DNA of 60,327 bases from a virus. Location: IMG/VR virus record IMGVR_UViG_3300032288_004972, positions 1 to 60,327 of that record. One strand, written 5' to 3'. Position 1 is the stretch's first letter, and each line of letters opens with the position of its first letter. A model generated the notes under the pieces. That model ran no database searches. It was not told the origin of the DNA and was given only the letters and a program-made list of their open reading frames with translations. Below are positions 6,316-40,709 of this stretch, in pieces. The translations under genes were made by a program, and so were the position numbers.

Positions 6316-6326
6316 AAGAAAACAAT

Positions 6327-7110: not shown

Positions 7111-7116
7111 TGGCCA

Positions 7117-9527: not shown

Positions 9528-10027
9528 TGAACGCCGCAATAAAAAATGCTTTGCGGATTGCTCGGGCGACGGGAGGCAAAGTCGTTGCTCATAGCGGGCC
9601 GATTCATTCCTTGGTTGCGGGGCGAACCGATCACCTGCCGATGCATGTCCAGTCGGGGAGCTACGTTCTTCCGGCCGACATTGTCTCTGCAATGGGCGAA
9701 GGAAATACTATGGCCGGATTCAAAGCGGTGAAAATCGCTTTTGATGGAATGCCGTACGATTCTGGTTCAGCGCCTTATGGCGAGAATATGAATCAAATTT
9801 CTGGGGCGGATCTTCCGGGCAAGGCGGAAGGCGGCGGGGTCAAAGAGTCCGCGCTTGTTCCGATTGTTGCGGCGGGCGGAGAATATGTTTTATCTCCGGA
9901 ACATGTCTCAAAAGTCGGAAAAGGAAATCTTGAGGACGGACACAAAATTCTTGATCTTTTTGTAAATAAAATGCGGAATAAGCATATCAAAACGCTTCAG
10001 AAGCTCCCGGGACCGAAGAAGGATTAA
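9527..10027 (+). CDS. Virion-associated protein with paired YVL repeats, unknown
   Basis: This 166-residue protein has an early ARATGGKVVAHSGPIHSLV segment carrying the GG motif shared by several virion proteins here. Two related units follow: SYVLPADIVSAMGEGNTMAG near residue 45 and EYVLSPEHVSKVGKGNLEDG near residue 125. Both combine a short strand, a helix and a G-x-G-N turn. The ATG at 9527 is chosen over an in-frame TTG one codon earlier because it gives the normal TGATG overlap. It lies in the tail/ejection operon and is probably structural. Confidence 0.6.
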   Translation: MNAAIKNALRIARATGGKVVAHSGPIHSLVAGRTDHLPMHVQSGSYVLPADIVSAMGEGNTMAGFKAVKIAFDGMPYDSGSAPYGENMNQISGADLPGKAEGGGVKESALVPIVAAGGEYVLSPEHVSKVGKGNLEDGHKILDLFVNKMRNKHIKTLQKLPGPKKD

Positions 10028-10557
10028 TGAAAATGTTAAGCTCAGTCGAAGTTCGTTTGGGTACGCCGCAGGATGTTGACGGGATGATGAAGCTCGCCAT
10101 TGCCGCTTGCGAGGAGAACGGCGTTCTTGAGCCCAATAAATTCGATTTGCTGCAGGACATTTGGCCCGCATTGAACCTCGATCACGGGATGGCTGGCGTG
10201 ATTGGTCCGATTGGCGGGGAGCTTGAAGGCGCAGTACTTTTGCGAATTGGCAGGCTTTGGTATTCAGAGAATCAAATCCTTGAGGAAAAGGCAATTTTTA
10301 TTCCTGAAGAGTTCCGGAAGGCATCCGGGCAAAGAGCAAGGAAACTTTGCGAGTTTTCTAAATCGATTTCAGACAAATTAGAAATCCCGTTGATGATCGG
10401 CGTTCTCAGCAATCAGCGGACGGAAGGAAAAGTCCGGCTTTACCGCAGAATTTTTGGAGAGCCTGCGGGCGCTTATTTTTTGTACAACGCAAAAACTGGA
10501 AACTGGAAAGAAAATCCTTCTGACACGGCGATCGCCGAAGAAATAACGGAGCACTGA
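10027..10557 (+). CDS. GNAT-like acetyltransferase fold protein
   Basis: The 176-residue protein starts VEVRLGTPQDVDGMMKLAIAA, the first strand and helix of GNAT proteins. It continues with a central EGAVLLRIGRLWYSENQIL sheet region, an IFIPEEFRKASGQRARKLCEF segment (the acetyl-CoA pyrophosphate-loop region would lie here) and IPLMIGVLSNQRTEGKVRLY. A clear Q/RxxGxG/A motif is only partly present, so activity is doubtful. GNAT-like proteins between tail and internal virion genes are seen in other podophages. It overlaps the preceding stop by one base. Confidence 0.6.
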   Translation: MKMLSSVEVRLGTPQDVDGMMKLAIAACEENGVLEPNKFDLLQDIWPALNLDHGMAGVIGPIGGELEGAVLLRIGRLWYSENQILEEKAIFIPEEFRKASGQRARKLCEFSKSISDKLEIPLMIGVLSNQRTEGKVRLYRRIFGEPAGAYFLYNAKTGNWKENPSDTAIAEEITEH

Positions 10558-10558
10558 A

Positions 10559-13500
10559 ATGGGCGGCGGCGGAAAAACTTCAACATCGACCCAACAGGTA
10601 ACGATCCCGCCCGAGGTTCTTGCTCGGTACAACGCTGTGAATGCGCGGGCCGAAGGTCTTTCGAACACTCCGTTCCAGCCCTACAGCTACGACCCAAATG
10701 CCTTCGTTGCACCGTTGACGCAAACGCAACAGGCGGGGATTCAAAACATCAACGCTCTGCAGGGGCAAGGCTCACAGTTTTACAATACTGCTGCGCAGAT
10801 GACTGGGGCAGGTTCGCAAAGCGTAAATCCGTCGGAACTCAACGTCGGACAGTATTTCAATCCTTTTACGCAATATGTTGCAGGCGCGACCGAAGCCGCT
10901 TTGGATCAGCAGCAAGGAATTCAAAACACCGAGCAACAAGCGCGAGCGATTCGCGGCGCGGGGGCCGCATTCGGCAACGACAGAACTGGCCTTGAGCGTG
11001 CAACGCTGAGAGGCCAGCAGAACCTTGCAAGAGCTCAGGCGCTTGCGCCAATTTATCAACAAGGATATCAGCAGGCTGTTTCTACTGCGCAGCAGCAGCA
11101 AGGGCTTGGCCTTCAAGCGGAGCAGGCCAACCTCGATCGGCTTTTGCGCGGAGGCCAGCAGCTTGCAGGAATCGGCTCGGCCGGACAACAATCTGGTCTT
11201 GCAGCAGCGCAAGCGCAACTTGGCGCAGGAACTGCGGAACAGCAGACTCAGCAAGCAGGCTTGCAGGCGCTGGTCAACCAGTTCATGCAGGAGCGTGGCT
11301 ACCCGTTCCAAATTGCGCAGTTCCTTGCCAACATCGCGATGGGCACCGGCGCGCTGTCGGGCAGCACGACCACCACGACGCAGCCCGCACCGTTTTTCTC
11401 CGACGAGCGCGAAAAGACCAACATCAAGTCGCTGGGCGATGGGCTCTACGCCTACGACTACATTGACGACGTTGAACGCGCAGAGCGCACAGGCTCGCCG
11501 ATGCCGCCCAAGCGCGTTGGTCCGATGGCGCAGGACATTGAGCAGTCGAGCCCCGGACAGGTTATCGATGTGAATGACTACAAGGTTGTCGCTCCAGCGC
11601 AAAAGGCTGGGGGCGGAGGATTGAGCATTGCTGCGCCGACGGCAGTGCGCAGCGGACTCGGATCAATGCCGCAGTTCGCGATGCCGCAATTTGGCGGAAC
11701 GTCTTCAGCGGCAATGCCAAGAATACAGGCGAGCGCAGTTTTGCCTGCGACCTACAGGCCTCCGGTTGCAGAACCTGCGCCAACAAGAACGTCCTACCGT
11801 GACATGGTGGCGAGCGGACAGCTTGGGCCATTCATTCCGGGAATGATTGGCATTATGGACGGAATTGCAGGGATGGCTGGACGGCCAGAGATGTTCAGTT
11901 CGGCGTTTGGCGAAAAACTTGCAGACCGAATGGGCGGATCTTCTCGAGCGCAGCGGAATTACAATCCCGGCGTTGCGGCTCCGCGCTATGCAGAAGGCGG
12001 GTACGTTGATCGGCCCGGCGCTTACGAGCGTGGCGGGTACGCTCCCGGCGGGCTCGTCGGAGCAGAAGATTTGCGCTCGATCCTCGCGGCGCAGCAGCAG
12101 TTCCTTGGCCCCTACGCAGGGCAAGGTGCGCCGTACAGCGGACAGCAGCAAGGCAAGCCGAGCTATGTCCCGCAGGCCTCCTTGCCTGTGCCAAAGCTGA
12201 TGACGGCAGGCAATGCGCCGCAGCAGCGCCCATCCGGTCTGGCGGAGGCAGCGCAAACGGGCTCGCAAATCGCTGGGCTGCTCGACATGGGCTCGAAAGC
12301 CTACGACAAAGGAAGCCAATTCCTCTCAAGAAAGCCTTCTGCGCCGACGTCAACTGGGCCAAAGGTGATAAATGAGTCTGGCGCAATTGCGCTCGGAATG
12401 AATGCGCCGCGCGAAACTCCCGACGTTGCGGCAGGGCTCGGCTCTGCGCCTGTGAAAGTGTCTGATCTTGTGGAAGAGACGACAGCGTTCGCAGCCAATG
12501 GCGGACGGATTGGTCGAGGTTACGCCTCCGGTGGAATGCCCTACGGCGGCGGGGACGAGATTCTTCAAGATGTTCTCGACGACGGCAAAGATGAGATTCG
12601 CCAGCTTCAAAAACCCGGACAGGCACCGGGCGCACCGAAGGGCCTCGGCTCAGAGCTCATGGATGCTGCGAAGCTCGGAAGCAGCCTTTACAGCATTGGC
12701 AGCACAGCCGCAGCAGCGGCTCCTGCCGCGATGGAATTTCTTGCAGCGATTCCGTTGATGTTCTCGGATCGCCGGTTGAAAGACAACATCGCCCCGGTTG
12801 GCGAGACCTATGACGGGCAGCAGATCTATCGCTACGACATGGGCGACGGACGCACGCAGCTTGGGCTGATGGCGCAGGAAGTTGCGCAGCGCAAGCCCGA
12901 CGCAGTTGGTGAGCGCAATGGCTTCCTGACGCTGGACTACGATCGCGCAACGGAGGATGCAGTTCCGCGCGCTTATGGCGGGCTGGTCCCGCGCGGCGGT
13001 TACGCAAATGGCGGACCACCAGAAAATGAAGAGCCTTCAATCCTCGAGCGTTTGAAGCGCGGAGCTTCCGATTTGCTTCCGGAGCCGGACCGCGTCCTTC
13101 CGTTGAAAACGGGAACCGGAGAAAAGTTCGGAGGATACGGAGACTTCCTGACAAGCAAGCAATTCATCATTCCGCTGCTGACCGGCCTCGGCGCAATGGC
13201 GGCTTCTCCGTCGCGCTATTTTGGCGGGGCGGCGCTACAAGGTTTGGGTGCAGGCGCACAGGCCTACTCGAACCTCGAGAAGCGCGAGCAGGACATGGCG
13301 ACGGATCGCGCAAGGGAACAGCAGATCCTCGCAGAAGTTGGCGGCGGCGAGCGGCGTCCGGGTCCGGATGGGTTCCCGCAGCGCCGGGTTTATCGCGGCA
13401 GGACTCCGGTGTGGATCGACGAGGGCGAATTCCAGAGGGCGCGGCGCGAAGGCCGTCCGTATTCCACAACGCCGGAAACGGCAGTCACACCTCCGGCAGC

Positions 13501-14554
13501 GCCCTATGGCGGCCCGGGTGCAGAGCCGGGCTTTGGGCAGCGCAGGCCCAACCCTCCAGAGCCCGTAGGAGCGGGTTCCGCCGCCGGGGCAGGAACTGCC
13601 GCCGGGACGGCTGCAACGGCTCCAGCCCGCGCTGGAACCAATCCAGCGACCGGAAAACCGGCGGGGGCGGCTCCGCGTGATCCGTCTGAATATCCGGCGG
13701 CGACGGGAGCGACGATTCAGCTTAATCCGGAGCTCCGAAAGCTTGCGGAAGAAAACGCGACAATGCGAGAAGACGCAGGGATCGCTGGTCTTCCGAAATC
13801 AGAATATTCCCCGTTCGAGTCTTGGTCTGCGGCAGCGAATATGTCGCGCGAGCAAATGCGAGATCGCATGACGTTTGCGAAGGCGCTGGCAGAAATCCCG
13901 CGTGACAATTCGGCTGTTCAAAGCGGCAGGTTCTCGTCAGAGGTCGCGACGCCAATAATTCAATGGGCGCGAAGCACACTTTCGACGCTCGGCGTTGATA
14001 ACGACACGCTGAACAAGATCGCTCGGCCGCAGGACCTTGCCAACACCGAAGTGGTTAACAAGATCCGTCAGGTCATGGCAGCGAAGATCGCAGCAGGCGG
14101 AGATCAGCGTTCGCTCGGAGCCCTTGAAGGCGCGCTGCTTTCGATCCCCGGCCAAGTCAACACCCCGGCGGGCGCAGCAAAGCTCGTTGCAGAGATGCTT
14201 GTTGGAGGGCAGGAGCCGCTCGACCGGGAAGCTTATGGGACGGCTTACCGTAGGTATGTCGAGAACAAGTTCGGATTAAGCGATACACAATCGCAATGGA
14301 CGGGACGCGGCCTTGCGCAGCAGTACGACAAAGACCGCCGTGAAGCGCTCGAGAAAGACAAAAAATATCTTGACGAGTTGTACCGTACTCCGATTACCAT
14401 CGACGGTAAGAAAGAATACATGCTTCCTTACCTGATTCGCAACAACGGGAAAATCGAAAATCCGCAAATTCGCGAAGCGTTCTACAAGCGTTACGGAAAA
14501 GACGCAGAAAAGGTCCTGCGTTACTTCAACCCGAATCTGATGAGGGTGCAATGA
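10559..14554 (+). CDS. Large internal virion protein with two S74 chaperone-like modules
   Basis: The 1331-residue protein is rich in Gln, Ala and Gly. Residues 1-270 are mostly helical and Gln-rich (TQTQQAGIQNINALQGQG and similar). Around residue 280 comes FSDEREKTNIKSLGDGLYAY and around 735 FSDRRLKDNIAPVG. Both resemble the SD-x-R-x-K-x-NI opening of S74 intramolecular chaperones and each is followed by an MAQ-containing segment. Between and after them are Gly/Tyr-rich linkers with the GGY/GGR motif. The C-terminal 250 residues are charged and helical. Length, operon position and composition suggest a DNA-ejection (internal core) protein. Confidence 0.7.
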   Translation: MGGGGKTSTSTQQVTIPPEVLARYNAVNARAEGLSNTPFQPYSYDPNAFVAPLTQTQQAGIQNINALQGQGSQFYNTAAQMTGAGSQSVNPSELNVGQYFNPFTQYVAGATEAALDQQQGIQNTEQQARAIRGAGAAFGNDRTGLERATLRGQQNLARAQALAPIYQQGYQQAVSTAQQQQGLGLQAEQANLDRLLRGGQQLAGIGSAGQQSGLAAAQAQLGAGTAEQQTQQAGLQALVNQFMQERGYPFQIAQFLANIAMGTGALSGSTTTTTQPAPFFSDEREKTNIKSLGDGLYAYDYIDDVERAERTGSPMPPKRVGPMAQDIEQSSPGQVIDVNDYKVVAPAQKAGGGGLSIAAPTAVRSGLGSMPQFAMPQFGGTSSAAMPRIQASAVLPATYRPPVAEPAPTRTSYRDMVASGQLGPFIPGMIGIMDGIAGMAGRPEMFSSAFGEKLADRMGGSSRAQRNYNPGVAAPRYAEGGYVDRPGAYERGGYAPGGLVGAEDLRSILAAQQQFLGPYAGQGAPYSGQQQGKPSYVPQASLPVPKLMTAGNAPQQRPSGLAEAAQTGSQIAGLLDMGSKAYDKGSQFLSRKPSAPTSTGPKVINESGAIALGMNAPRETPDVAAGLGSAPVKVSDLVEETTAFAANGGRIGRGYASGGMPYGGGDEILQDVLDDGKDEIRQLQKPGQAPGAPKGLGSELMDAAKLGSSLYSIGSTAAAAAPAAMEFLAAIPLMFSDRRLKDNIAPVGETYDGQQIYRYDMGDGRTQLGLMAQEVAQRKPDAVGERNGFLTLDYDRATEDAVPRAYGGLVPRGGYANGGPPENEEPSILERLKRGASDLLPEPDRVLPLKTGTGEKFGGYGDFLTSKQFIIPLLTGLGAMAASPSRYFGGAALQGLGAGAQAYSNLEKREQDMATDRAREQQILAEVGGGERRPGPDGFPQRRVYRGRTPVWIDEGEFQRARREGRPYSTTPETAVTPPAAPYGGPGAEPGFGQRRPNPPEPVGAGSAAGAGTAAGTAATAPARAGTNPATGKPAGAAPRDPSEYPAATGATIQLNPELRKLAEENATMREDAGIAGLPKSEYSPFESWSAAANMSREQMRDRMTFAKALAEIPRDNSAVQSGRFSSEVATPIIQWARSTLSTLGVDNDTLNKIARPQDLANTEVVNKIRQVMAAKIAAGGDQRSLGALEGALLSIPGQVNTPAGAAKLVAEMLVGGQEPLDREAYGTAYRRYVENKFGLSDTQSQWTGRGLAQQYDKDRREALEKDKKYLDELYRTPITIDGKKEYMLPYLIRNNGKIENPQIREAFYKRYGKDAEKVLRYFNPNLMRVQ

Positions 14555-17091
14555 ACGACGCGATTTTCGGAGAGCCGGAAGACTATTCCGCAACAAATAC
14601 GGCTCCTGCGCCGAGCCCGTCTCCGTTTGGCACGCTCCCGAAGCAGGGCGCGCTCATCTTCGGAGAGCCTGAGAGCTACAACGAGACCTCCGGAAATGCT
14701 CCACCAACGGCGGGGCAGTCTGCTGTCGCAATTGCCACAGGTGCGATGCAGCCTGCCGCGAGGGCAATGAAGTCGCTGACGCCGAGGCGCATGGGCGAAT
14801 ACCTCGAACAGCGCATGCTTCCGACGCTGGAAGAAAATTCGCAGCGCGCAATTATTAAGCAAGAAGCAGAACGGCGGCGGAATGAAGCGGAGCTCCCCGG
14901 CGTTGACCCAACGACGCAAAAGGCGCTGGCCGCTGGGATGAATACGTTGGGCTCAGGGACGCTGAACACGTTCAATTGGCTCCCTGCGACAATGGGCAAA
15001 GCAGCCGGGACAATGGGCGTTCCGGGCTACGAAGCTTTTCGCGAGCCTTCGATCACAGATATCAAAAAACAATTTGACACTAAGCAGACAGCGGCAGCAG
15101 AGTTGCAGCCGGGTTACGGCGCGGCGGGAACGCTCGCCGGAATCGTTGGCGGAGCAAAGGCGCTCCCTGCGATTGCCCCGACAAGGTCTCCGGCGGTCAG
15201 CGGCGCACTGACGGGTGCAGTTTATGGAACGGTGGCAGGCGGTGCGGCGGAAGGAAGCCTAATCGACGCAATCAAGGGCGCGGGGGTCGGCGCACTCGGC
15301 GGCGCAGTTGCTGCACCAATTCTTGAAAAAGCAGCGAGCGGCCTGACGCGGCTTTTCGTCGGAGGGAGGCCCGTCGTCGATGCGTCTGGGTCGTTGACGC
15401 CGGAAGCACGGAAGATCGCGGCGCAGGCAGGTTTGTCAGCGGACGACATCAACACCTTGAGCCCGCAGCTGCGCGAAGTTTTTGAGCGCCGAGGCCTGAC
15501 ACCTGCCGCAGCAAAAGAAGCGCGGTTCCGTGAATTCGAAATTGAGCCCAAGCGCGGCATGGTCGAAAACGACATGCGCCAGCTTGCTGCAGAACAGAAA
15601 TTCGGAGACTACGGGCCGCAGGTCGCTCAGGCGGCAGGCGCAGCAGAGCGGTTCGTCGGAGGACAGCAGCCGCCTCTGCGCGACGCAATTTATTCCGCTG
15701 TGAACAAGGCCGAGAGCAACGCAAAGGGCCTGAAGGCAACAGTCGATGCGGCCTACGCTCGTGCGGGACAGACGCCGGGCTCTTTTTCGCGCGAGACGCT
15801 CGAGAATGTTGGGGACAAAATCCTCCAATCTTGGACGCCAAATGCAAATCTTTTAGCTTTCCGGAACAACGAAGTTGCGACAAAAGCTGCTGAGAAATTG
15901 AACGCAGACCTCGGAACATTCCTTGAGGCCGGAAACGGCGTCAGGATCATGCATCGCAATTTCCGTGCGGTCGAAGAGGCTCGCAAAGGACTGAACGAGG
16001 CATTTTCGAAAGCGCAAACACCGACAGATCGAGCGGCGGTCAGAAAACTCATCGAGAGCTACGACGACTACATTGAATCAGCAATCTCCTCCGGCGCATT
16101 CAAAGGCGACCCCAAAGTGTTGCAGGAATGGAAAACCGCACGTAAGCTTTTCAGCGAATATCAGAACAAGTTTGGAGTGAAGAAATCCGGTGAAGAGGCC
16201 GGGTCGCTGCTGAAAGCGATCGTTGAGCAAAACAAGGGACCGGACGATGTTGCAAAGATGATGTTCTCATTTGCGGGGTCAGGTGACGCCGCGATGAAGC
16301 AAAACGCACTGAAGACCTATTTTCAGCTGCGGCGAGCATTGGGGCCGAATAGCCCAGAGCTCGAGAACATCAAACGTTCTTATATCCAAGAGATAATGAC
16401 GCCGACAGAAGCTTCCCAAAAAGGATTCGCTGCAGCTGCAAAAAAGATGGATGCTTTTCTGAAAGGCAATGCTTCCGACTTCTCCCGGCGAGTGCTGTCC
16501 TCGCAGGAAAGAGAAGGGCTCGCGCGCTACGCTGAAGTGATGCGCCAAGCCTCAAAAACGTCGCCTGACGAGACTCGGTACAAAATCAATCAGGTTACGA
16601 ACGCGCTGATGACAGCGGTTCCGGTTGTTGCGAGCGGCGCGAGTTATGCGCTTTCGATGGCCCATCCGGCCCTCGCTGGGCTCGTCGGCGGCATCGGCCT
16701 AGGCGTCGGTACGGCGCGAGGCTACCGGGGCAGCGATTTCGTCGCGAGGCGCTTGGCCAACAAGCCGCCGCGTGAAGTGCCGCGCGAGCGCGCAGTTCCG
16801 AGCATCCGGACCGGCGTTCCATTGGGAGCAGCGAGCGCTCCCGAAATTGAAAAGGCGCTGCCCGAAGTTGGGCGGGCCTTTGAAGAACGGCAGCGCACGA
16901 CCCCTGAAGATCCGCGCAGGGCGCGTGCAACTGGCGGGAAAGTTTCGATTGACCATCACGCCGAGGCAGACAAACTTATCCGGCTTTTTGAACAAGCAAG
17001 GAAAAGCCACGGCAAGCAGACCGAAAGTCTGCTTTCACAAGACGACAATGCAATCGCAAAGGCGCTAAAAGTCGCCAACGACCACATCTGA
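14551..17091 (+). CDS. Large internal / DNA-ejection-type virion protein
   Basis: The 846-residue protein overlaps the preceding gene by ATGA. FGEPEDYS and FGEPESYNE near the N-terminus are a short duplicated unit. A long Ala/Gly-rich stretch around residues 190-265 (GAAGTLAGIVGGAKALPAI, GAGVGALGGAVAAPILEKA) resembles amphipathic or membrane-inserting helices. A second such stretch lies near residues 685-725. In between is a long charged helical region. The C-terminus has RATGGKVSIDHHAEADKLI, the GG motif shared with other virion proteins. This fits proteins ejected into the cell envelope to form a DNA conduit. No lytic domain is recognised. Confidence 0.65.
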   Translation: MNDAIFGEPEDYSATNTAPAPSPSPFGTLPKQGALIFGEPESYNETSGNAPPTAGQSAVAIATGAMQPAARAMKSLTPRRMGEYLEQRMLPTLEENSQRAIIKQEAERRRNEAELPGVDPTTQKALAAGMNTLGSGTLNTFNWLPATMGKAAGTMGVPGYEAFREPSITDIKKQFDTKQTAAAELQPGYGAAGTLAGIVGGAKALPAIAPTRSPAVSGALTGAVYGTVAGGAAEGSLIDAIKGAGVGALGGAVAAPILEKAASGLTRLFVGGRPVVDASGSLTPEARKIAAQAGLSADDINTLSPQLREVFERRGLTPAAAKEARFREFEIEPKRGMVENDMRQLAAEQKFGDYGPQVAQAAGAAERFVGGQQPPLRDAIYSAVNKAESNAKGLKATVDAAYARAGQTPGSFSRETLENVGDKILQSWTPNANLLAFRNNEVATKAAEKLNADLGTFLEAGNGVRIMHRNFRAVEEARKGLNEAFSKAQTPTDRAAVRKLIESYDDYIESAISSGAFKGDPKVLQEWKTARKLFSEYQNKFGVKKSGEEAGSLLKAIVEQNKGPDDVAKMMFSFAGSGDAAMKQNALKTYFQLRRALGPNSPELENIKRSYIQEIMTPTEASQKGFAAAAKKMDAFLKGNASDFSRRVLSSQEREGLARYAEVMRQASKTSPDETRYKINQVTNALMTAVPVVASGASYALSMAHPALAGLVGGIGLGVGTARGYRGSDFVARRLANKPPREVPRERAVPSIRTGVPLGAASAPEIEKALPEVGRAFEERQRTTPEDPRRARATGGKVSIDHHAEADKLIRLFEQARKSHGKQTESLLSQDDNAIAKALKVANDHI

Positions 17092-17101
17092 GGAGAACGT
17101 C

Positions 17102-18016
17102 ATGGCTTCGTCCTACACTTCAAATAAATACATCGAGAAGCCTGCGTACAATGACTACGCCGCCAACCCAACGGGATGGTCCGGTCCCGTCAACACGGAC
17201 TGGGACATAATTGATGCTGCATTCGGCGGCGTTTTGTCTTTGAATGCGACAGGCTCTGTGGGAACGGTTGCGATCACAACCGCAAACGCAAAGAACCTGA
17301 TTATTAATGTTACAGGCGCGATGACAGGCAACGCCACTTACACTCTTCCAGCTAATTCTGGCGCAACGGGCATTGTCGGAGGTCAATGGATCGTTTACAA
17401 TAATACAACGGGCAATTTCACCGTTACAATTGCTCCGGTTTCGGGCGGCGGAACATCAGTAGTCTGTCGGCAAGGAGTTCGCACGGCCATCTATTCGGAT
17501 GGAACGAATGTCGCCCTCGCAGATGATCGCGCATCTCCCGGCGGATCAAACACTCAACTTCAATATAACAATTCAGGGGCGCTTGCTGGTTCCTCGAAAA
17601 TGACCTTCGACGGGACCACAACCACGATTGATGCTCTCGCGGTAACAAACGCCGCCACGGTAGGTGGAACAATAACTGGTTCAAGCACAATTGCGGATTC
17701 AATCGGCAATGTTAGAACCATCCCCGCCAATGCAAAGACAACCGCCTATGTTCTTCTTTCATCGGATGCTGGTAAATTCATCAGCATTACGACAGGCGGC
17801 GTTACGATCAATACCGGCACGTTCACCACTGGCCAGAATGTCACAATCTACAACAACAGCGGCAGCAACCAGACAATCACGCAGGGCTCTGGCGTAACTC
17901 TCAGGCAGGTTGGAACAGCATCTACGGGCAACCGAACTCTTGCTCAATACGGTCTTGCGACGATCTTATGCGTTGGGACGGACACTTACGTTATAACGGG
18001 CGGGGGCCTGACCTAA
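17102..18016 (+). CDS. Tail-fibre-like protein sharing a module with the collagen fibre
   Basis: The 304-residue protein has a good GAGGAGAACG ribosome binding site. The N-terminus (YTSNKYIEKPAYNDYAANP, WDIIDAAFGG) is a particle-attachment type found on many phage side fibres. The middle contains GGSNTQLQYNNSGALAGSSK, nearly the same module as in the collagen-like fibre ([13 protein letters not shown]). The C-terminus is a Thr/Ser/Gly-rich beta protein (VTIYNNSGSNQTITQGSGV). It is probably a side fibre or fibre adaptor and overlaps the glycine-rich adhesin by one base. Confidence 0.75.
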   Translation: MASSYTSNKYIEKPAYNDYAANPTGWSGPVNTDWDIIDAAFGGVLSLNATGSVGTVAITTANAKNLIINVTGAMTGNATYTLPANSGATGIVGGQWIVYNNTTGNFTVTIAPVSGGGTSVVCRQGVRTAIYSDGTNVALADDRASPGGSNTQLQYNNSGALAGSSKMTFDGTTTTIDALAVTNAATVGGTITGSSTIADSIGNVRTIPANAKTTAYVLLSSDAGKFISITTGGVTINTGTFTTGQNVTIYNNSGSNQTITQGSGVTLRQVGTASTGNRTLAQYGLATILCVGTDTYVITGGGLT

Positions 18017-18729
18017 TGTCCATATATAATCTGCTTTGCGGCATAGGAGCAATTCAGGCTTCGCCCGGCACGCTTGTCAATACGCAAGAATTTACTTCGG
18101 CAGGCTCGGGAACATGGATAAAACCCGGCAACGCATCCTATGCAATCATTGAAATTTGGGCCGGAGGCGGCTCTGGCGGCATGGCGTACAATGGCCAAAC
18201 TTCCTCCCAAGGTGGACAGGGAGGGGCGTACGTTAGTTACCAAGCAAGCATGGCCGATATGGATGCAACCGAAGAATTGCTCGTAGCCGCTGGCGGCGCG
18301 AGGGTACAAAGTAATGGTGGCGCTGGCCTCCCCGGCGGTTTCTCTTGGTTTGGCAGGGCTATATGGGCGAAAGGCGGATATGGTGGCGGCGGGCAATTTG
18401 TTACCGCTTCTGCAGCCGCTAACTATACACCGACAGTCTCCCGCCCTTGGACATTGTTGAGCAGTGAAAATGGGGCGGGAAGCACCTATTCCGCCAATGG
18501 GACAAATGCAACATACGCAGGCGCTGGCGGTGGCGGCGCTTTCAATCTTGGCACCGGGTCATATCTTGGCGGCACATCAACCTACGGCGGTAATGGTGGC
18601 GCAGGAAACAACGGTGGCGGGAACGCCACTGCCGGATCACAACCCGGCGGCGGCGGCGGAGCAGCAATTTACGTTTATTTCTCCGGCGCGGGCGGCAACG
18701 GAAAAATTGTCGTCAAGAGCTACGCCTAA
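18016..18729 (+). CDS. Glycine-rich fibre-tip adhesin-like protein
   Basis: The 237-residue protein starts at the ATG overlapping the previous stop. Residues 30-60 (FTSAGSGTWIKPGNASYAII) match the start of glycine-rich phage domains. The remainder is very Gly-rich with GGGGSGG, GGQGG and GGNGGAGNNGGG runs, like the polyglycine-II adhesins on fibre tips such as T4-type gp38. It would determine receptor binding. Its stop overlaps the convergent gcrA stop, so no terminator separates the two transcription arms here. Confidence 0.75.
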   Translation: MSIYNLLCGIGAIQASPGTLVNTQEFTSAGSGTWIKPGNASYAIIEIWAGGGSGGMAYNGQTSSQGGQGGAYVSYQASMADMDATEELLVAAGGARVQSNGGAGLPGGFSWFGRAIWAKGGYGGGGQFVTASAAANYTPTVSRPWTLLSSENGAGSTYSANGTNATYAGAGGGGAFNLGTGSYLGGTSTYGGNGGAGNNGGGNATAGSQPGGGGGAAIYVYFSGAGGNGKIVVKSYA

Positions 18730-19223
18730 ATATATTTTATCGACCTTTTATATTGTGACAGCGATTGATAGCAGATTTTGTGATGATCTTCGCAATAAGT
18801 TTTACCTGACTTTTTGCGGCCGCAGAAAATGGCCCCGGCTCCGGAGCCTTCGACAATGAAGCGACAGGAGGAATCTGTCAGTCCCATTATTGCGACGCGC
18901 TCTTTCCTGCGTTTTGCTTTTTCGAAAATTTCATTGACCGCCGGAATTTCGGAGGGCTTGGACAGGAAGGCGAGCTTTTGGGGTTTTTCTCGCTTTGGCA
19001 GAACAACGGGATTTGCCTTTTTGCCTTTTTTCTTCTGAGGAGGCAGCGCCCTTACAGAGACAGATATGCCGCGTTCGCGCATTCTCGATATTCTGCCTGA
19101 AATCGAATTGCGCGTTGTGCCGAGTTCGATGGCAATTTCTCCCATCGAAAGCCCGCTGTTCCATGCTCGAATGATAAAATCTTCGATCTGTTCGACGGGG
19201 ATCTTGTTTTTTCTATCGAGCAT
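18726..19223 (-). CDS. gcrA: GcrA-family transcription regulator
   Basis: The 165-residue protein matches GcrA, which binds sigma70-RNA polymerase and activates promoters with methylated GANTC sites in Alphaproteobacteria. The N-terminal helix-turn-helix is visible (AWNSGLSMGEIAIELGTTRN, then SISGRISRM). A basic linker rich in Lys/Pro follows. The C-terminus has the family signature L-x-D-x-x-CRF...FCGRKKSGKTYCEDH, where Cys and His residues are conserved. It is last in the minus-strand operon. A phage copy could redirect host polymerase to phage late promoters or mimic the cell-cycle state. Confidence 0.85.
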   Translation of the reverse strand: MLDRKNKIPVEQIEDFIIRAWNSGLSMGEIAIELGTTRNSISGRISRMRERGISVSVRALPPQKKKGKKANPVVLPKREKPQKLAFLSKPSEIPAVNEIFEKAKRRKERVAIMGLTDSSCRFIVEGSGAGAIFCGRKKSGKTYCEDHHKICYQSLSQYKRSIKYI

Positions 19224-19236: not shown

Positions 19237-19809
19237 TTATCTCATTGCGACGAGCGTTCCTGCCCAAGCAGGAGCAGGAGCATTCATGACTTGTCGCGTG
19301 TAGGTTTTGGCGTAGCGCTCTGCCCAAGGAGCGAGACGCTTTCCTGCAATCGCGCCCGGTCCCGCCACGTGGCATCGTGCCGCGAGCGATTCACTTCCGT
19401 TTGCGCGCTTCAGGCAATCTGCTAGGTGGGCCATCCCATATTTGAGTCCGGGGAGTCCTTGCAAGGAGCCGCCTTTATAACCAAACCGCGCAGCACTCGA
19501 TGGCCGGATTTGATAAGCGCCGTAGTGCCGCCCGTGCTTTGTTTTTGGTCCAGTGGCGTAGAGGTTGCACCTGCTCTCAATGTGACATACTTTCAGCGCC
19601 AGCCGGTCAGGAACTCCCTGCCGACGGGCCTCTGCAAGAATGATCGGAATGTGATTGTTCCGTGAGATGTTTTTGGGGATCGTTCCAAAAGAGCTTGGGG
19701 CTTGCCCACGATCTTTCGCAAAATAAACTCCCGGCGGCTCATCCCACGATGCACTGGAAACGGTCGCAGAAACTGCGACCGCCCCAGCAATTGCTAAAAA
19801 TCGACTCAT
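19237..19809 (-). CDS. Exported lytic transglycosylase-like protein
   Basis: The 190-residue protein has a cleavable-type signal peptide (FLAIAGAVAVSATVSSASWD). A transglycosylase SLT-type core follows: ALKVCHIESRCNLYATGP with catalytic Glu78, then GAYQIRPSSAARFGY (the family usually has Gly-x-x-Q-I). Such enzymes cut the MurNAc-GlcNAc bond of peptidoglycan. It is a second wall-degrading enzyme beside the amidase at 5176, lies in the other transcription arm and would act in the periplasm. Its start overlaps the stop of the small membrane gene upstream (ATGA). The protein contains several Cys residues that could form periplasmic disulphides. Confidence 0.8.
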   Translation of the reverse strand: MSRFLAIAGAVAVSATVSSASWDEPPGVYFAKDRGQAPSSFGTIPKNISRNNHIPIILAEARRQGVPDRLALKVCHIESRCNLYATGPKTKHGRHYGAYQIRPSSAARFGYKGGSLQGLPGLKYGMAHLADCLKRANGSESLAARCHVAGPGAIAGKRLAPWAERYAKTYTRQVMNAPAPAWAGTLVAMR

Positions 19810-21256: not shown

Positions 21257-21584
21257 TTGTATCTCCATTTTCATTTACGGGAGGATTGTCGCCCGTGTTT
21301 GGAGAAAAAGAAAGCTGATTTTTTAAAAATTGACAGATTTCCGGGGTCAAATCAAAGACAGCACGATTGCCGCGCCCCAATTTCGTCGATCGCTCAAGAC
21401 GCAATCCTGCTTCTGCAAGAAGCTTGTTTCTTATTCTTAGCATTGAGACAACTGCAGAGCGGCGCATGTGTCTCTTGCCTTGATACTTTTCAGGCAATGC
21501 GAACAAAAGCTCGTCGAGCGTGATTGATTCGCCTGCTTGCGCCATGGCAGCAGCAAGGGCGCGCTCTTTTGGTGCAAGTTTCAT
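21231..21584 (-). CDS. Helix-turn-helix-like protein
   Basis: The 117-residue protein starts KLAPKERALAAAMAQAGESI and continues TLDELLFALPEKYQGKRHM. It then has SAVVSMLRIRNKLLAEAGL and an LERSTKLGRGNRAVFDL wing-like hairpin, a pattern of winged-helix proteins related to DNA-binding effector domains. The C-terminal 25 residues are polar and disordered (NPPVNENGDTNETIRDP). It overlaps the next gene by 26 bases. Regulator function is inferred from fold only. Confidence 0.6.
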   Translation of the reverse strand: MKLAPKERALAAAMAQAGESITLDELLFALPEKYQGKRHMRRSAVVSMLRIRNKLLAEAGLRLERSTKLGRGNRAVFDLTPEICQFLKNQLSFSPNTGDNPPVNENGDTNETIRDPL

Positions 21585-21908: not shown

Positions 21909-23585
21909 TCAGTTCTCCTCTAATTCAAAAAGTTTGCGCAGATCGTCAAGCATCAAATCCGAAACGGACTTTTTGCTCTTGAGATTGGCCAGAATTTTCC
22001 GGTCCGGAGAGTTGCGCGCCACAAGATCGAAATACGTCACGGAATGCGTCGTCCCGTCGCGCCATGTGCGGCCTTCCGATTGCCAACGCTCAAGGGCGTT
22101 GAACGAGTTGGAATAATAGATGTTTGTCTGGCACAACCCTTGCAAATTGAGCCCTGTGCCGGCAGCGCCCGCACTGGCGAACAGCAGGTCCTTGCCTGAC
22201 TTCCCATTCATGAATTGTTCAATGATCGCAGGACGATCGGCCTGCGGCGTCTGACCATAATATTTCAGCGCCCGGCTTCCGTATTCTTTTGATAGGCCCT
22301 CGATGTCCTGATGAAACCGACACCATATTATGATCTTGCCGGAGCGCTGTTCAATGACGGAGCGCAGCGCCTCTTTGCGCGGGTTCTTGAATTCGCGGAC
22401 GGTGCCGTCCTCTTTCGGCAAAAACCCACAGCTGACTTGCTGCAATCGAACGAGCAAACTCGCAGCGTTTTTCACGAACAGCGTTTCATTGTCCTGAAAC
22501 TCAGCAAAGAAGTTTTTCTTGAGCTCTTCCATGACGGCGATTTGATCTGCGTCGAGGATGAACGGGCGCTCGACATAGTGCTTCGGCGGTAGGTCGTAGG
22601 CTTCAGCCGTCGTGATGCGGAAGACGTAGGGATCGATCTTGCTGAAGAGCTCGTCCTCGTTTTTGTGGCCCGTGATGACTTCGCCATAGTCCGTCTGCTT
22701 GAATTCGCAATAACGATTTTTGAACGTCGTGATGTAACGATGGCCTACGATTCCTTCATGCAAAAACTGAAACTGCGAAAACAAATCGAGCAGGTTTTTC
22801 GAGATCGGGGTCCCTGTCATAATCAGCCTATGCTTGGCCAATTTGGCATAACGCAATGCCGCCTTGGTCCGCGCCGCCGCCGGAGTCTTGATGTCCTGCG
22901 ATTCATCGACAGCCATGAACGTCCGCCCTCCGGCGAGGAACCGGAGAATCTTCTCCTCTGCACGCGGCGTGGCGATGGCTTCCGTGTTGATGAGAAAAAT
23001 CTGCAATCCGTCGAAATTGAGCAATTCATCGAACTCACGGTCCGCCGCCTTGGTCCGTCCGAACACATGCGCCTTGAACTTGACCGCACGGCCCATATGC
23101 GCCGGGATCTGCTCCCGCGCCCATTGCTGATGAACCCCGTTTTTGGCCACCACCAGCAGCCGGTCAATCTGCCCGGCGCACCAGCGCTGCCCGGCCAACG
23201 CGATTGCGGTCCAGCTTTTGCCGGTTCCCACCTCCATGAAAAGTGCCCCATAAGCCTTCGGACCCAGTTTTGCCAGCGCGGCCTTCTGGTGGGCTCTGGG
23301 CGGCGTTTTGAACTCGAAGGCAGGTCGGGAGCTCGGAAGGTCAAAGATCGCCTCTGTGGCCGCTGGAAGCCCGGCGATCGCCCCCTCGGCAGGCGGAGCT
23401 CCCTCCAGCCGCGCATCGGGAAAAACGGAACGCCAGACCTCGAGGTTGTAGGGGGTGTTTTCGAAACTGAAACTCCGGTTCGCGCCCCACCGCTTCATGC
23501 CTTCAAGCCGGTTCAGCGCTTTCAGGATGCGAGGATCGTAGGATCCCGTCGTTTTCACCCGATTTCCGTCGATTTTTGCGTCCAT
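21909..23585 (-). CDS. SNF2-type superfamily 2 helicase/ATPase
   Basis: The 558-residue protein has all core SF2 motifs. Walker A is MEVGTGKS at residues 117-124, preceded by a Q-motif-like AHQKAALAKL. Motif Ia is VVAKNGVHQQW, motif II is VDESQD around 226-231 and motif III is MTGTP at 256-260. Motif IV/V is FASAGAAGTGLNLQG and motif VI is ERWQSEGRTWRDG. It is compact, without extra nuclease or zinc domains, like phage SNF2 proteins that remodel DNA-bound proteins in replication or recombination. It starts just downstream of the conserved 72-nt element and probably heads the second half of the minus arm. Confidence 0.88.
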   Translation of the reverse strand: MDAKIDGNRVKTTGSYDPRILKALNRLEGMKRWGANRSFSFENTPYNLEVWRSVFPDARLEGAPPAEGAIAGLPAATEAIFDLPSSRPAFEFKTPPRAHQKAALAKLGPKAYGALFMEVGTGKSWTAIALAGQRWCAGQIDRLLVVAKNGVHQQWAREQIPAHMGRAVKFKAHVFGRTKAADREFDELLNFDGLQIFLINTEAIATPRAEEKILRFLAGGRTFMAVDESQDIKTPAAARTKAALRYAKLAKHRLIMTGTPISKNLLDLFSQFQFLHEGIVGHRYITTFKNRYCEFKQTDYGEVITGHKNEDELFSKIDPYVFRITTAEAYDLPPKHYVERPFILDADQIAVMEELKKNFFAEFQDNETLFVKNAASLLVRLQQVSCGFLPKEDGTVREFKNPRKEALRSVIEQRSGKIIIWCRFHQDIEGLSKEYGSRALKYYGQTPQADRPAIIEQFMNGKSGKDLLFASAGAAGTGLNLQGLCQTNIYYSNSFNALERWQSEGRTWRDGTTHSVTYFDLVARNSPDRKILANLKSKKSVSDLMLDDLRKLFELEEN

Positions 23586-23622: not shown

Positions 23623-23730
23623 AGTTCCGTTTCGGAAATTTTCCACAGTTCCCACGGTTACTATAAATTTATTTCTTTCTAGAGTTTCTATCCCAACGGG
23701 GGAACAAGGGAAAATTGTGGAAACGGAACT
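23623..23730 (-). promoter_or_regulatory. Conserved 72-nt element with nested inverted repeats, copy 1
   Basis: Read in the transcription (minus) sense, 23714-23685 matches 40552-40581 at 29 of 30 bases and 23665-23643 matches 40601-40623 at 21 of 23, with the same 19-base spacer. Outer inverted repeats are AGTTCCGTTTC (23623-23633) and GAAACGGAACT (23720-23730). An inner imperfect dyad is GTTCCCACGGTT / AACGGGGGAAC. It lies in the 229-base gap before the SNF2 helicase. A late-promoter or regulator site is most likely; a replication-origin role is possible. Confidence 0.75.
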
Positions 23731-23756: not shown

Positions 23757-23794
23757 AAAACCCCGAAACGACCTCTACCTTGGCCGTTCCGGGG
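23757..23794 (-). terminator. Rho-independent terminator after the DUF932 gene
   Basis: On the minus strand CCCCGGAACG (23794-23785) pairs with CGTTTCGGGG (23770-23761), with one G-T wobble, and is followed directly by TTTTCCG. It lies 20 bases beyond the stop of the upstream gene and separates it from the next conserved element. Confidence 0.75.
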
Positions 23795-23814
23795 CGACAT
23801 TCTAGCCGTTCAAG

Positions 23815-24850: not shown

Positions 24851-25414
24851 TCAGCTGACAACAACCCAATCGTGGTCGAGGTCCCATGCGAGGTCCTGAC
24901 GACGGCCCCCGGCGGCGAGGTAATCTTCGTAGGTTATGCCGGGATTCGCAAGCACGATCTTGAATGACTCGAAACCTTGCGTGCCTTCGCGACGGGGATT
25001 CTCCGGCACCTTGGACTTGATGGTCTTGCCGGAGAACTCAGACACGCGCCCGCGCTTGGTGCCTTCCGGCGCGGCCTGCTTGGCGGCGGCCTTTGCCTTC
25101 TTCGGGGCCTTGGCCTGCGGCGCGGGAGCCGCGACCTCGTCGGCGTAAAGCGCCACGTCAACCGCTTTGCCATGCGCTTCAGCGAGGGCGATGAGGCGCT
25201 TCGCTGCCGTGGCCCGATCGGCGAACTTCTTGATCGGCGCGGCGGGAGTGAAATGGTTGTAGAGGTGGACCATTTCGGCGTTGGTGAACCGGGAGGTGGC
25301 GAGCTCCTCAGCGTCGGACGCGAAGATCATGCCGTTGCCGGAGGAGGTTGCGTCCTTGCGGGTCGGGTAGATCTTGATGGTGTTCTTGACGAGGTCGTAA
25401 GCGTAGGTTTTCAT
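24851..25414 (-). CDS. Early protein of unknown function, basic linker
   Basis: From the ATG at 25414 (AGGAGAAACTCAG before it) this is a 187-residue protein. The N-terminal part (residues 1-85) contains IKKFADRATAAKRLIALAEA, a helical motif seen in small phage, plasmid and alphaproteobacterial proteins. An Ala/Lys/Pro-rich linker (residues 90-120, APAPQAKAPKKAKAAAKQAA) follows, then a C-terminal domain with NPGITYEDYLAAGGRRQDLA. The basic linker suggests nucleic-acid contact. Function is unknown. Confidence 0.65.
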   Translation of the reverse strand: MKTYAYDLVKNTIKIYPTRKDATSSGNGMIFASDAEELATSRFTNAEMVHLYNHFTPAAPIKKFADRATAAKRLIALAEAHGKAVDVALYADEVAAPAPQAKAPKKAKAAAKQAAPEGTKRGRVSEFSGKTIKSKVPENPRREGTQGFESFKIVLANPGITYEDYLAAGGRRQDLAWDLDHDWVVVS

Positions 25415-25467: not shown

Positions 25468-25761
25468 TTAGAGCTTCGGCTTGATCGCCAGAGTGGCGAT
25501 GTTCTTGGTCACCTTGGCGAAAGCGATTTCGCACTGCTTGCGCACGTCCTCGGCGAGGTGAGCGGCAGCTGCCGCCTTCCAGTCAACGGTCGTGCGGTCG
25601 GAAAGCTTGACGAGCACGATGCAGCGGTCGCCCTCGACGATCTCCTGCCCGGTCGCGAGGATTTCCTCACGGAGGCGCTTCATCTCGATTTCGAGCTCTT
25701 CGACGCGGGCCTTGAGCGAAGCGTAGCGGTCAGCGAGCGAGGTGTTCAGCAGGTCAGTCAT
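25468..25761 (-). CDS. Small early protein with N-terminal coiled coil
   Basis: The 97-residue protein is read from the ATG at 25761, which follows the conserved ATGGAGATGGAA ribosome binding leader. Residues 10-40 are a coiled coil (SLKARVEELEIEMKRLREEI). The rest, DRCIVLVKLSDRTTVDWKAA and EIAFAKVTKNIATLAIKPKL, is a mixed domain resembling parts of small phage nuclease-associated or annealing proteins, but no assignment is safe. It has its own duplicated leader. Confidence 0.6.
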   Translation of the reverse strand: MTDLLNTSLADRYASLKARVEELEIEMKRLREEILATGQEIVEGDRCIVLVKLSDRTTVDWKAAAAAHLAEDVRKQCEIAFAKVTKNIATLAIKPKL

Positions 25762-25857
25762 TTCCATCTCCATTTACATCAACCGTGTTTTCTTTCTGCC
25801 TGAGATTTTCAGAAAAGAAAACAAAAAAGATGCACCTTGATGAATTATTTTTCATCA
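25762..25857 (-). promoter_or_regulatory. Duplicated early leader, copy 1, with upstream hairpin
   Basis: Read on the minus strand, 25830-25762 carries TTTTTTGTTTTCTTTTCTG, GAAAATCTCAGGCA and TTGATGTAAATGGAGATGG. This closely parallels the leader at 27228-27297. GTTTTCTTTCTG (25787-25798) and CAGAAAAGAAAAC (25810-25822) also form an imperfect inverted repeat. Upstream, TGATGAA (25838-25844) and TTCATCA (25851-25857) make a short hairpin that starts at the stop of the glycosylase gene. Promoter plus ribosome-binding leader is likely. Confidence 0.6.
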
Positions 25858-26560: not shown

Positions 26561-27227
26561 AGTTCTTGGGTGAAAGTTCCTTGGGGCGAGAGATCAAGGT
26601 TTGCTTGACGCCCTCGCGGACAGCGTGGTCTTTGATGGTCGCTTTCACGCGGACGACTTCGCCCTTCTCGCCGAGCACGTTCGAGCCCTTATAAATAATC
26701 GTGTTGCCATCCGGGTCGGTGCAGCCGTTCACGTGGGTCGTTCCGAATTGCGTATCGAAGCTTACGACGAATTTGATCGTCAGTTCGAAATCCCGGCGCT
26801 CGCCAACGGTCCCGACGTGAACTGAGCGCGCGGCCTCTGCGGCGAACTTTTCCTTGCGCTCTTCAATCCGCTTGGCAGCGCGCTCGATCATATCGAGAAC
26901 GGCTTTTTCTTGGCCGGGCGTCAGCGAGCCCCATTCGTTCAGGGACTCCCGCATTTTGGCATGAAACACGCCGTACGACGCCTTGACGAGCGGATGATGG
27001 ACGAACTTGTCTTCGTCCACCCAACGACCCGCGAACTCGCCCACCTCGAGCAAAAAGTCCTTGCACTTTTGCGCATTTGGGGAAGAGGCGAGCCAGCGTT
27101 TTTCCCTTCCACGCAGAGCATTCGCAGCGATGCGTGCCTGAGCGGCGGCAATGTAAGCCTGATCGTTTTCAACATGATCCGGCACGTTGATCCGGGGAAG
27201 GCGAGGAGTGCGGGCTGCAAGGGTCAT
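26559..27227 (-). CDS. Early protein with C-terminal OB-fold-like domain
   Basis: The 222-residue protein is read from the ATG at 27227 after the conserved ATGGAGATGAAA leader. Residues 1-125 are helical and charged (AQKCKDFLLEVGEFAGRWVD and EKAVLDMIERAAKRIEERKE). From about residue 140 a beta-rich part follows (GTVGERRDFELTIKFVVSFD, TTHVNGCTDPDGNTIIYKGS, GEVVRVKATIKDH and KQTLISRPK). It is similar to small OB-fold units found at the end of phage and plasmid replication or nuclease-associated proteins. It may bind single-stranded nucleic acid. It is the first gene of the minus arm. Confidence 0.65.
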   Translation of the reverse strand: MTLAARTPRLPRINVPDHVENDQAYIAAAQARIAANALRGREKRWLASSPNAQKCKDFLLEVGEFAGRWVDEDKFVHHPLVKASYGVFHAKMRESLNEWGSLTPGQEKAVLDMIERAAKRIEERKEKFAAEAARSVHVGTVGERRDFELTIKFVVSFDTQFGTTHVNGCTDPDGNTIIYKGSNVLGEKGEVVRVKATIKDHAVREGVKQTLISRPKELSPKN

Positions 27228-27468
27228 TTTCATCTCCATTTACATTCAACAAACGCATTATGCCTGATCTTTTCCAAAAAGAAAACAAAAAACGTCGACC
27301 TGCCGAGGTCTAGTTTCCTTTTCAGAACAAGCACTTATCACACCAAACGTCCGCCCCCTGAAAAAAGTTCCCAAAAATCCAAAAAACAAGGTGCTTTTTA
27401 TAAAAAACCGGCGCAGTCTCAGCCCGTGGCAAAACAAAGCGATTTGCTTAAGCCCACAGGAGTCAAAA
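27228..27468. promoter_or_regulatory. Divergent early promoter region
   Basis: The 241-base gap separates the two divergent arms. The minus-side leader (27297-27228) reads TTTTTTGTTTTCTTTTTGG, GAAAAGATCAGGCATAATGC, then TTGAATGTAAATGGAGATG. CATAAT is a good -10 candidate. GACCTGCCGAGGTC (27297-27310) is a small dyad in the centre. The plus side is A/T-rich with GTGCTTTTTATAAAAAACC near 27390 and a GGAG ribosome binding site at 27459. Early promoters for both arms most likely lie here. No longer repeat was seen. Confidence 0.6.
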
Positions 27469-37689: not shown

Positions 37690-39969
37690 ATGAAAATTAA
37701 GTCGCTTTCAGAAATCCCTGCAGTGCAGGCATATCTCACGCGCATCGGAGCGCGCCCGCGTTCGCTCCGCACAGCGGTTGTGGAGGAACGACGCGGGGAC
37801 TATTGGTCAGACGTTGCGCTCATTCACTTCGCCACGGACGGCAAGGTGAAAGCGCCGGAGCTCTACGCTCCCACAGAGCGTGAGCGCTTGCAGATTGAGT
37901 TGGATTGTCAAGCCGTTCAGTGGCCGCAGTCCGCCGTCATCCCTGCAGGCATGGCGCTGCCGGAAAAAGTCAATGCGCTGCCGACGCAGGACATCTTCAC
38001 GTTCAAGAACATGAACGGGGAAATTCTGATGATCCAAACGCGGCAGATGGTCAAGGGCGAAAAGCGCTACGCGCCATGGACCTTTTGGGACGACGGCGAA
38101 TGGAGGATGATGGAGCCGGAAGGATTGCTCCCGCTTTGGGGCATGGAGCAACTCAACCATCATCAAGTCGTGTTCATTCATGAAGGTGCCAAAGCTGCTG
38201 CAACCATCCGCAAGATGGTTGACGCAAAAACGCCGGAGGACAGAGCGGCCCTCGCGGCTCATCCTTGGGGTGAGGAACTGCAGCACGCCGCCCATCTGGG
38301 ATGGATTGGAGGCGCTTTGTCGCCCTCCCGCACGGATTGGTCCATCCTCCGCAAAGCGGGCGTCAAGCGCGCCTACATCGTTTCTGACAACGATGCACCG
38401 GGCGTGGCGGCGGTCCCCGCCATTGCGCGCCATCTCCGCATTCCGACCTTCCAGCTGCAGTTCACGAATGAGTGGCCCGGCGGCTTCGACCTCGCCGATC
38501 CGTTCCCCGCCAAGATGTTCAAGGAGGTTGATGGGTTCAATTATTATGTTGGTCCCAGCTTCCGGGCTTGCTTGCATCCTGCCACATGGGCGACGGACCT
38601 GATCCCAAACCCCAAGGGCAAGCCGACGCCGATGCTGCGTGACAATTTCAAGGAGATGTGGTCCTACGTCGAGGAGGCCGATCTTTTTGTTTGCATCGAC
38701 ATGCCTGAGATTGTGCGGCCGGAATCAATCATGAACAAAATGCTCGCGGCCTTCTCGGACACCAACGAGACTTCGCGGCTGGTGGTGAAGGCTTACACGG
38801 GCCGCAGCGCAAAGCTTTGCTACCGCCCTGACAATCCCGGCAAGATCGTGACGGACAACACGACCTCGGCCATCAACTTGCATACCCCGACGCATATCAA
38901 AAGCCGCCCCGGTTCACCGGAGCCGTTCATTGAGTTCCTTGAGTATATGTTCCCCAATGAGAACGAACGCTACGAAGTTGCGCGTTGGTGCGCCACGCTC
39001 ATTGCGCGGCCTGATGTCAAGATGGAATATGGCATGTTGCTCGTCAGTGAGCGTCAAGGTGTCGGAAAGTCAACGCTCGGTGCGACGGTGCTTGCGCCGC
39101 TCGTGGGAATGCAAAACGTGGGCTACCCAACCGAAACGCAGATCGTGCAGTCGGAGTTCAACGGCTGGATGGCAAACAAGAGGTTGGTGATTGTTCATGA
39201 GATTTACTCCGGGCACTCGTGGAAGGCTTACAATAAGTTGAAGTCGGCCATCACGGACAAAGAGGTTGAGGTCAACGAGAAATACCAACGGACCTACACG
39301 ATTGAGAACTGGGCGCACGTGTTCGCTTGCTCGAATTCGCTGCGCGCTTTGAAGATGGAGGAGGATGATCGCCGTTGGTTTTATCCTGAAGTGACCGAGG
39401 AGAAGTGGAGCCGCGACAAGTTCGAACAATTCCACAATTGGATCAAGTCCGGGGGCCTCTCGATCATCAAGAACTGGGCCGAGGGCTTCGAGGACTACGT
39501 TGGCAAGGGTCAGGCCGCTCCCATGACGCAGCGCAAGCGCGACCTCATTGCGGACTCCCGGACGGAGGGCCAGCAAGAGGCAGCGGAGCTCGCAGGGGCG
39601 ATGAACCGGAAAAAGGAGCCGGTGGTCGTTGCGATGAAAGAGGTCGTCGAGTGGGTGCGCCAGTCGGTGCAAGGTCGGGTGTTCGACACCGACCTCGAGA
39701 TTCGCAAAACGATGAAGGAGAATGACACGTTCTGGTTCGACGATCGCATCTTGGTCAAGGGCCGATTGCAGTTTGCTGGCATGAATGAGAAGGCGCTCAA
39801 GAAGCTGCGGGAAAGCGGCTTTTCGATGAAGATTGTCAAGGGCACCGTCTCTTTGAACAAGAAGGAAAACGAAACGGAGGAGGAGTTCAAGGAGCGGAAG
39901 AAGGCATTCGCCGCGACGATGAGCGCCATGGCTGTCGCGCCGGGGGACGTGCTGGGCGTGGCGATGTGA
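37690..39969 (+). CDS. Primase-helicase (TOPRIM-like region plus DUF5906-type helicase)
   Basis: The 759-residue protein is read from the ATG at 37690. Its first third contains VVFIHEGAKAAATIRKM (acidic residue near 164) and AYIVSDNDAPGVAAVPAIA (DND near 233), the two acidic motifs of a TOPRIM-type primase. The centre has Walker A SERQGVGKSTLGATVL (about residues 453-468), KRLVIVHEIYSGHSWKAYN as Walker B region and VFACSNSLRALKMEEDDRRW. These are typical of D5/DUF5906 superfamily 3 helicases. The C-terminus ends in a lysine/glutamate-rich helix. It would prime and unwind DNA for the DnaE-type polymerase encoded upstream. Confidence 0.85.
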   Translation: MKIKSLSEIPAVQAYLTRIGARPRSLRTAVVEERRGDYWSDVALIHFATDGKVKAPELYAPTERERLQIELDCQAVQWPQSAVIPAGMALPEKVNALPTQDIFTFKNMNGEILMIQTRQMVKGEKRYAPWTFWDDGEWRMMEPEGLLPLWGMEQLNHHQVVFIHEGAKAAATIRKMVDAKTPEDRAALAAHPWGEELQHAAHLGWIGGALSPSRTDWSILRKAGVKRAYIVSDNDAPGVAAVPAIARHLRIPTFQLQFTNEWPGGFDLADPFPAKMFKEVDGFNYYVGPSFRACLHPATWATDLIPNPKGKPTPMLRDNFKEMWSYVEEADLFVCIDMPEIVRPESIMNKMLAAFSDTNETSRLVVKAYTGRSAKLCYRPDNPGKIVTDNTTSAINLHTPTHIKSRPGSPEPFIEFLEYMFPNENERYEVARWCATLIARPDVKMEYGMLLVSERQGVGKSTLGATVLAPLVGMQNVGYPTETQIVQSEFNGWMANKRLVIVHEIYSGHSWKAYNKLKSAITDKEVEVNEKYQRTYTIENWAHVFACSNSLRALKMEEDDRRWFYPEVTEEKWSRDKFEQFHNWIKSGGLSIIKNWAEGFEDYVGKGQAAPMTQRKRDLIADSRTEGQQEAAELAGAMNRKKEPVVVAMKEVVEWVRQSVQGRVFDTDLEIRKTMKENDTFWFDDRILVKGRLQFAGMNEKALKKLRESGFSMKIVKGTVSLNKKENETEEEFKERKKAFAATMSAMAVAPGDVLGVAM

Positions 39970-40664: not shown

Positions 40665-40709
40665 ATGTTTTCTTTCTAAAATGAGAAACATTTGTTGTGT
40701 TTTCTTTCT
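40665..40709 (+). promoter_or_regulatory. Paired GTTTTCTTTCT boxes before the late operon
   Basis: GTTTTCTTTCT occurs at 40667-40677 and again at 40699-40709. The first is part of an imperfect inverted repeat with AGAAACATTT (AAATGTTTTCT...). The same T-rich box is seen in the transcription sense before the genes at 25761, 27227 and 54498. A promoter- or activator-associated site is likely. The rest of the gap up to the start at 40752 holds only the ribosome binding site ACAGGAGAGG. Confidence 0.5.

Follow-up and report, generated by a model that had tools for sequence, protein, structure and literature searches.

A nested-dyad element present in twin copies in an uncultivated phage genome: a candidate control site of the late operons

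The protein p4 of phage phi29 binds inverted repeats at the early/late boundary, remodels ~120 bp of DNA there and activates a late promoter that has a poor −35 (PMC3100819). At the Mor/C-dependent middle and late promoters of phage Mu, a dyad operator of 5-bp inverted repeats replaces the −35, and the host sigma-70 polymerase works together with the phage activator (PMC4390567). Related elements of ~70 nt, one per transcription arm, are found in HK022 (putL/putR) and lambda (nutL/nutR) (PMC9378689). Here, we describe a twin element in a virus record of 60,327 nt, analysed over its full length (the window), that may work most like the sites of phi29 p4; membership in that family is by likeness only. 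The p4 sites are four 5′-CTTTTT-15 bp-AAAATG-3′ repeats in one region (A2c-A2b-A3), whereas here one nested dyad of ~106 bp precedes each putative late arm, with two to three copies per genome and direct repeats within the arms. The Mor site of Mu, in turn, has only 16 bp, is centered at −43.5 and is followed by a recognisable −10. HK022 put works at the RNA level close to early promoters; in contrast, the element described here heads late blocks, its copy A stands after a terminator and a pairing signature of RNA is missing.

The open reading frames of the window run in two arms, leftward from ~27.2 to 18.7 kb and rightward from ~27.5 kb round to 18.7 kb; the terms "early" and "late" are used for blocks that are putatively so by their gene content. 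Copy A of the element sits in the left arm between a DUF932 gene and the gene of an SNF2-family helicase (21909-23585, minus strand; PF00176, E 1.5e-16), which is the first gene past A and has its ATG 37 nt from the element. This arm ends, downstream of A, with a GcrA homologue (18726-19223; PF07750, E 1e-17) that is kept in the left arm of several close relatives and points to an alphaproteobacterial host. A hairpin resembling an intrinsic terminator (23760-23795, minus strand; 14 pairs, nine of them G-C, and a T tail) lies between the upstream DUF932 gene and A, the only one found near A against a mean of 0.6 in shuffled sequence; near copy B none was found. Copy B is located 3′ of the gene of a DUF5906 primase-helicase (37690-39969, plus strand) and 5′ of gene 40752, for which no relative was confirmed, of a VRR-type nuclease-like gene (41182-41616, plus strand; phrog_2165, a weak match with E 0.0005, the name VRR being taken from annotated relatives) and of the genes for the small and large terminase subunits (41689-43826, plus strand; PF20901, phrog_1482, TerL), with which the packaging/virion operon starts. 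The virion region also encodes a protein of 1396 amino acids with an inorganic pyrophosphatase domain (46373-50560; PF18823, E 5e-47) and an LPD23 domain. A terminal repeat of 118 bp (1-118 and 60210-60327) lies within a tandem collagen-like (GPTGPTG) coding repeat, and therefore the apparent circularity of the window could be an assembly effect. No tRNA was found.

In the direction of transcription, 23714-23643 on the minus strand and 40552-40623 on the plus strand share two blocks with 29/30 and 21/23 identical bases, and the alignment bears out the preliminary description also in that the blocks are 19 bases apart in both copies and that this spacer differs in sequence. Block 1, spacer and block 2 occupy 23685-23714, 23666-23684 and 23643-23665 in A and 40552-40581, 40582-40600 and 40601-40623 in B. 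The spacer of A is an AT- and purine-rich asymmetric core, that of B is GA-rich, and the purine bias of the core is also present in the elements of relatives. Self-BLAST of the twin 72-nt blocks gave 84.7% identity (E 3.5e-13), and self-comparison revealed no third copy within the window genome. In part, block 2 is an inverted repeat of block 1 (GTTCCC..GGGAAC), and the 72-nt blocks are the cores of two larger nested dyads of ~106 nt. The inverted repeats that flank them had been called unlike in sequence; they do differ in part, but TTCCGTT/AACGGAA is common to both copies, and the full elements are therefore ~108 nt in A (23623-23730, minus strand; outer 11-bp arms 23730-23720 and 23633-23623) and ~114 nt in B (40533-40646, plus strand; outer 16-bp arms 40533-40548 and 40631-40646). 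In an unbiased scan of the whole window for dyads of 96-115 bp, A ranked first (28/36) and B second (26/36), the next best scoring 23. Thus, A heads the arm from SNF2 to gcrA and B the arm with the VRR nuclease, terminase and virion genes.

The exact two-block pattern, CCCCGTTGGGATA-N15-40-TATAGTAA, had no match in IMG/VR, so the blocks of the window are lineage-specific. An arm pattern, TTCCRTTTCCRTT-N70-96-YGGAAAYGGAA, searched at the level of DNA only in all of IMG/VR, retrieved 24 stretches, which comprise 14 distinct sequences since near-duplicate contigs are included. The span of these elements is 105-107 bp throughout, though 27 gap lengths were permitted, and every one of them lies upstream, in sense orientation, of SNF2 (nine) or VRR/TerS/TerL (15), none elsewhere; on the terminase side, the VRR-type gene is 3′ of the element in all 15. 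The position at the heads of late operons, noted before in the window alone, is thus conserved in related phages. The same arm pattern in bacterial genome contigs gave 18 stretches with a scattered span (95-119 bp), which we take to be mostly chance. Matches to a core pattern, CGTTGGGATA..TAGAGA, resembled ordinary coding sequence apart from that in G023, and distant blastn against cultured phages gave chance matches only.

In an alignment, A and B are in register with the elements of 17 relatives. Homologues of A precede SNF2 at the equivalent site in relatives whose SNF2 is 55-62% identical, and in G006, and likewise in G012, the two dyads that rank highest are twins, one ahead of SNF2 and the other ahead of the VRR/terminase block. 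A search with the primase-helicase gave 80 loci, many of which have a nested dyad at the equivalent place even though the enzyme is only 50-60% identical. Distant relatives, with replication genes of 50-60% identity, have two to three copies per genome, the arms of which are unrelated in sequence. Twins or triplets were found in G021 (82% identity), G022 (84%), G026 and G028 (74%), three copies in G024 (82-97%), the third of them 36 nt ahead of baseplate-wedge genes, and three in G030 (68,037 nt, with a terminal repeat of 141 bp), two of these having arms of ~21 bp; G023 and G027 have longer or weaker versions. In L030, L031 and L036 an additional copy of the arm motif makes a second hairpin (CTGACGGAAACGGT..ACCGTTTCCGTCAG) just 5′ of the element, so that the left arm has two possible pairing partners. 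None of the matches in a tblastn search of 50,697 phage records covers 80% of the primase-helicase, the best about a third, and the group thus appears to be without a cultured member in that collection. The distance to the genes is also tight: for 26 of 28 elements the first open reading frame, called mechanically as the first of at least 60 amino acids, starts within 60 nt of the 3′ end, in some of them inside the right arm.

In each arm, a ~5-mer occurs twice as a direct repeat with a period of 6-7 bp; both copies are inverted in the opposite arm and recur in the twin. Over 17 lineages, matches at this period numbered 82, compared to 42 ± 3.9 after shuffling (0/2000). The arms differ between lineages (TTCCRTTTCC, GGTTCCAAGTTCC, GGTTCGGAGTTCG, GGATCCAGATCC, TTTCGTTTTTCG), and within a genome the half-sites of both arms and of the twin vary together.

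These features lead us to favor, with some reserve, a multi-copy control site of the late operons that is bound by a phage protein; paired replication origins come next and control at the level of RNA third. At the head of each putative late transcription unit lies a nested dyad, whose DNA half-sites flank an asymmetric core rich in purines. A sequence-specific protein encoded by the phage would bind the half-sites and, once bound, would activate transcription by the host RNA polymerase at a promoter without canonical hexamers; with two copies, one early product could switch on both outward-facing arms together. The late activator site envisaged in the preliminary description is in line with the position immediately 5′ of the late blocks, with the conservation, with the twins in both arms and with the terminator-like hairpin before A, but neither ordinary host-polymerase hexamers nor a part for GcrA are borne out. 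TATAAT-like sequences scored 3.87 in 30 elements and 3.80 after shuffling, so that the TATAGT of the window is unremarkable, and a sigma-70-type match is found neither inside A nor inside B. The gcrA gene of the phage is itself downstream of A, and an iterated profile search detected no homologue in G013-G015, G021-G024, G026, G028 and G030; most of these contigs are incomplete, which makes absence from them weak evidence, while G030 has the 141-bp terminal repeat. A phage RNA polymerase may yet be encoded, since the model for T7-type enzymes matched nothing and failed to pick up its control as well. Speaking against a control site are, apart from the missing hexamers, the restriction of the terminator to copy A and the left copy of G021, whose core points opposite to the local genes.

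A lead to the binding protein, by linkage only, is the product of 24851-25414 (minus strand), which consists of a basic linker and a C-terminal beta-alpha3-beta domain and is a candidate binder of the element. Its family is present in most early modules that have the element, including those of distant genomes, and often adjoins the SNF2-side element (G022, G023, G024, G028); it is also present in G025, in which a clear element was not found. In the predicted structure the C-terminal ~57 residues form beta-alpha-alpha-alpha-beta with a pLDDT of ~90, compatible with a winged helix. A fold search of the PDB with the product gave no match at E <= 0.001, and a model of just the C-terminal 52 residues, made without an alignment, was poor.

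The early arm has repeats of a different kind. Copies of TTGTTTTCTTTT, several of them followed by a −10-like GGCATAATGC, are found ahead of gene starts in the window (25757-25837 and 27223-27301, minus strand) and in G006 (19444-19567 and 21348-21474). These leaders are probably early promoters and are quite unlike the late elements.

The satellite phage P4 has two cis sites with repeated half-sites, ori and crr, that are bound by its alpha primase-helicase. The present genome likewise combines a pair of sites made of repeated half-sites with a linked primase-helicase. The two to three copies per genome might be paired replication origins, where the inverted half-sites would be bound by an initiator, perhaps the primase-helicase itself, that melts the core rich in AT and purines. 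The company kept by the element is in favor of this reading, which we nevertheless consider unlikely. The window is a mosaic, split into 40692-60327 plus 1-18700 on the one hand and 18700-40500 on the other; the virion module has its closest relatives in G004, G002 and MW202675, the replication module in G012 and G006. A dyad scan of the terminase-module relatives G001-G004, MW202675 and CRP-901 gave no outstanding dyad; the element is thus not part of the virion module but follows the early/replication module (DUF5906 primase-helicase, PolIII alpha). Moreover, the layout, with direct 5-mers in inverted pairs on both sides of an asymmetric AT/purine-rich core, is similar to that of known initiator sites, and G021 has a copy with the core reversed. 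However, the gene orders tell against it. In type I they are DUF932-element-SNF2 and primase-helicase-element-VRR, in type II primase-helicase-element-SNF2 (G005, G007, G008) and DUF932-element-VRR (L066, L072, L078), halves that lie on separate contigs and are paired into one genome by inference, and in type III primase-helicase-DUF932-element-SNF2. In all three the element keeps its place 5′ of SNF2 or of the VRR-terminase block and not its place next to the primase-helicase, and phages in which SNF2 closely follows the primase-helicase in the same direction have no dyad there. Origins need not adjoin start codons either, as nearly all of the elements do, and the third copy of G024 is within tail genes. 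In contrast to ori and crr of P4, every copy keeps its place ahead of a late gene block. A site with a dual purpose, at which a phage initiator/activator fires replication and also opens late transcription, the half-sites and the DNA-binding protein diversifying together between lineages, is conceivable but appears doubtful to us.

Less probable still is an element that acts as RNA, with a hairpin in the nascent leader serving as an antiterminator, like HK022 put or lambda nut, or as a processing site of RNase III. The twin in both arms is reminiscent of putL/putR (PMC9378689), and the element has strong hairpins on both strands and is close to ribosome-binding sites. In addition, the first gene past the right element of G021 (L182, 15664-16164) matches a phage family named "transcription antiterminator" (phrog_6386, E 3e-8). 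It reads like a NusG relative, yet the NusG Pfam model does not match it; this model had no match in 14 records, though its control did. Selection on a hairpin in the sense-strand RNA should favor G-U over A-C. The outer 22 pairs, counted over 28 elements, comprised 480 Watson-Crick, 33 G-U and 29 A-C pairs, and a separate gapped count of 19 elements gave 35 G-U and 27 A-C, counts that are not independent because of the relatedness of the elements. Hence, the preference for G-U that marks a conserved RNA stem-loop was not seen in the 28 elements, and A-C mismatches occur even in otherwise perfect arms. Both strands of the element fold well, as those of any dyad would; pairing leaves the direct repeats in the arms unexplained, and the hairpin would bury the start codons in several relatives. 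There is also a terminator just before copy A, and the element has no Rfam match. From the types of mismatches, the direct repeats and the arm sequences shared by the twins, a DNA recognition site fits better than an RNA hairpin.

In G005, G007 and G008 the whole early module is inverted relative to the late arms, compared to the window, G006 and G012, and the two breakpoints coincide with the twin elements, but a recombination site that flips this module is very improbable, since type II forms a single clade in all three trees (primase-helicase, PolIII, SNF2), consistent with one old event and thus an inversion that probably happened once, the 19-nt central spacers differ between A and B where a crossover core would be identical, and copies in direct orientation (G021) as well as triple copies exist.

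A control site of this kind would provide a cis-regulatory rule, in which two to three matching nested dyads in a genome point to the heads of its late gene blocks without recourse to gene names. Should the site indeed have the dual purpose outlined above, late expression would be coupled to replication in a large group of uncultivated phages. Since the half-sites change completely between lineages while the geometry stays, the elements may offer a natural series for the co-evolution of a protein and its site.
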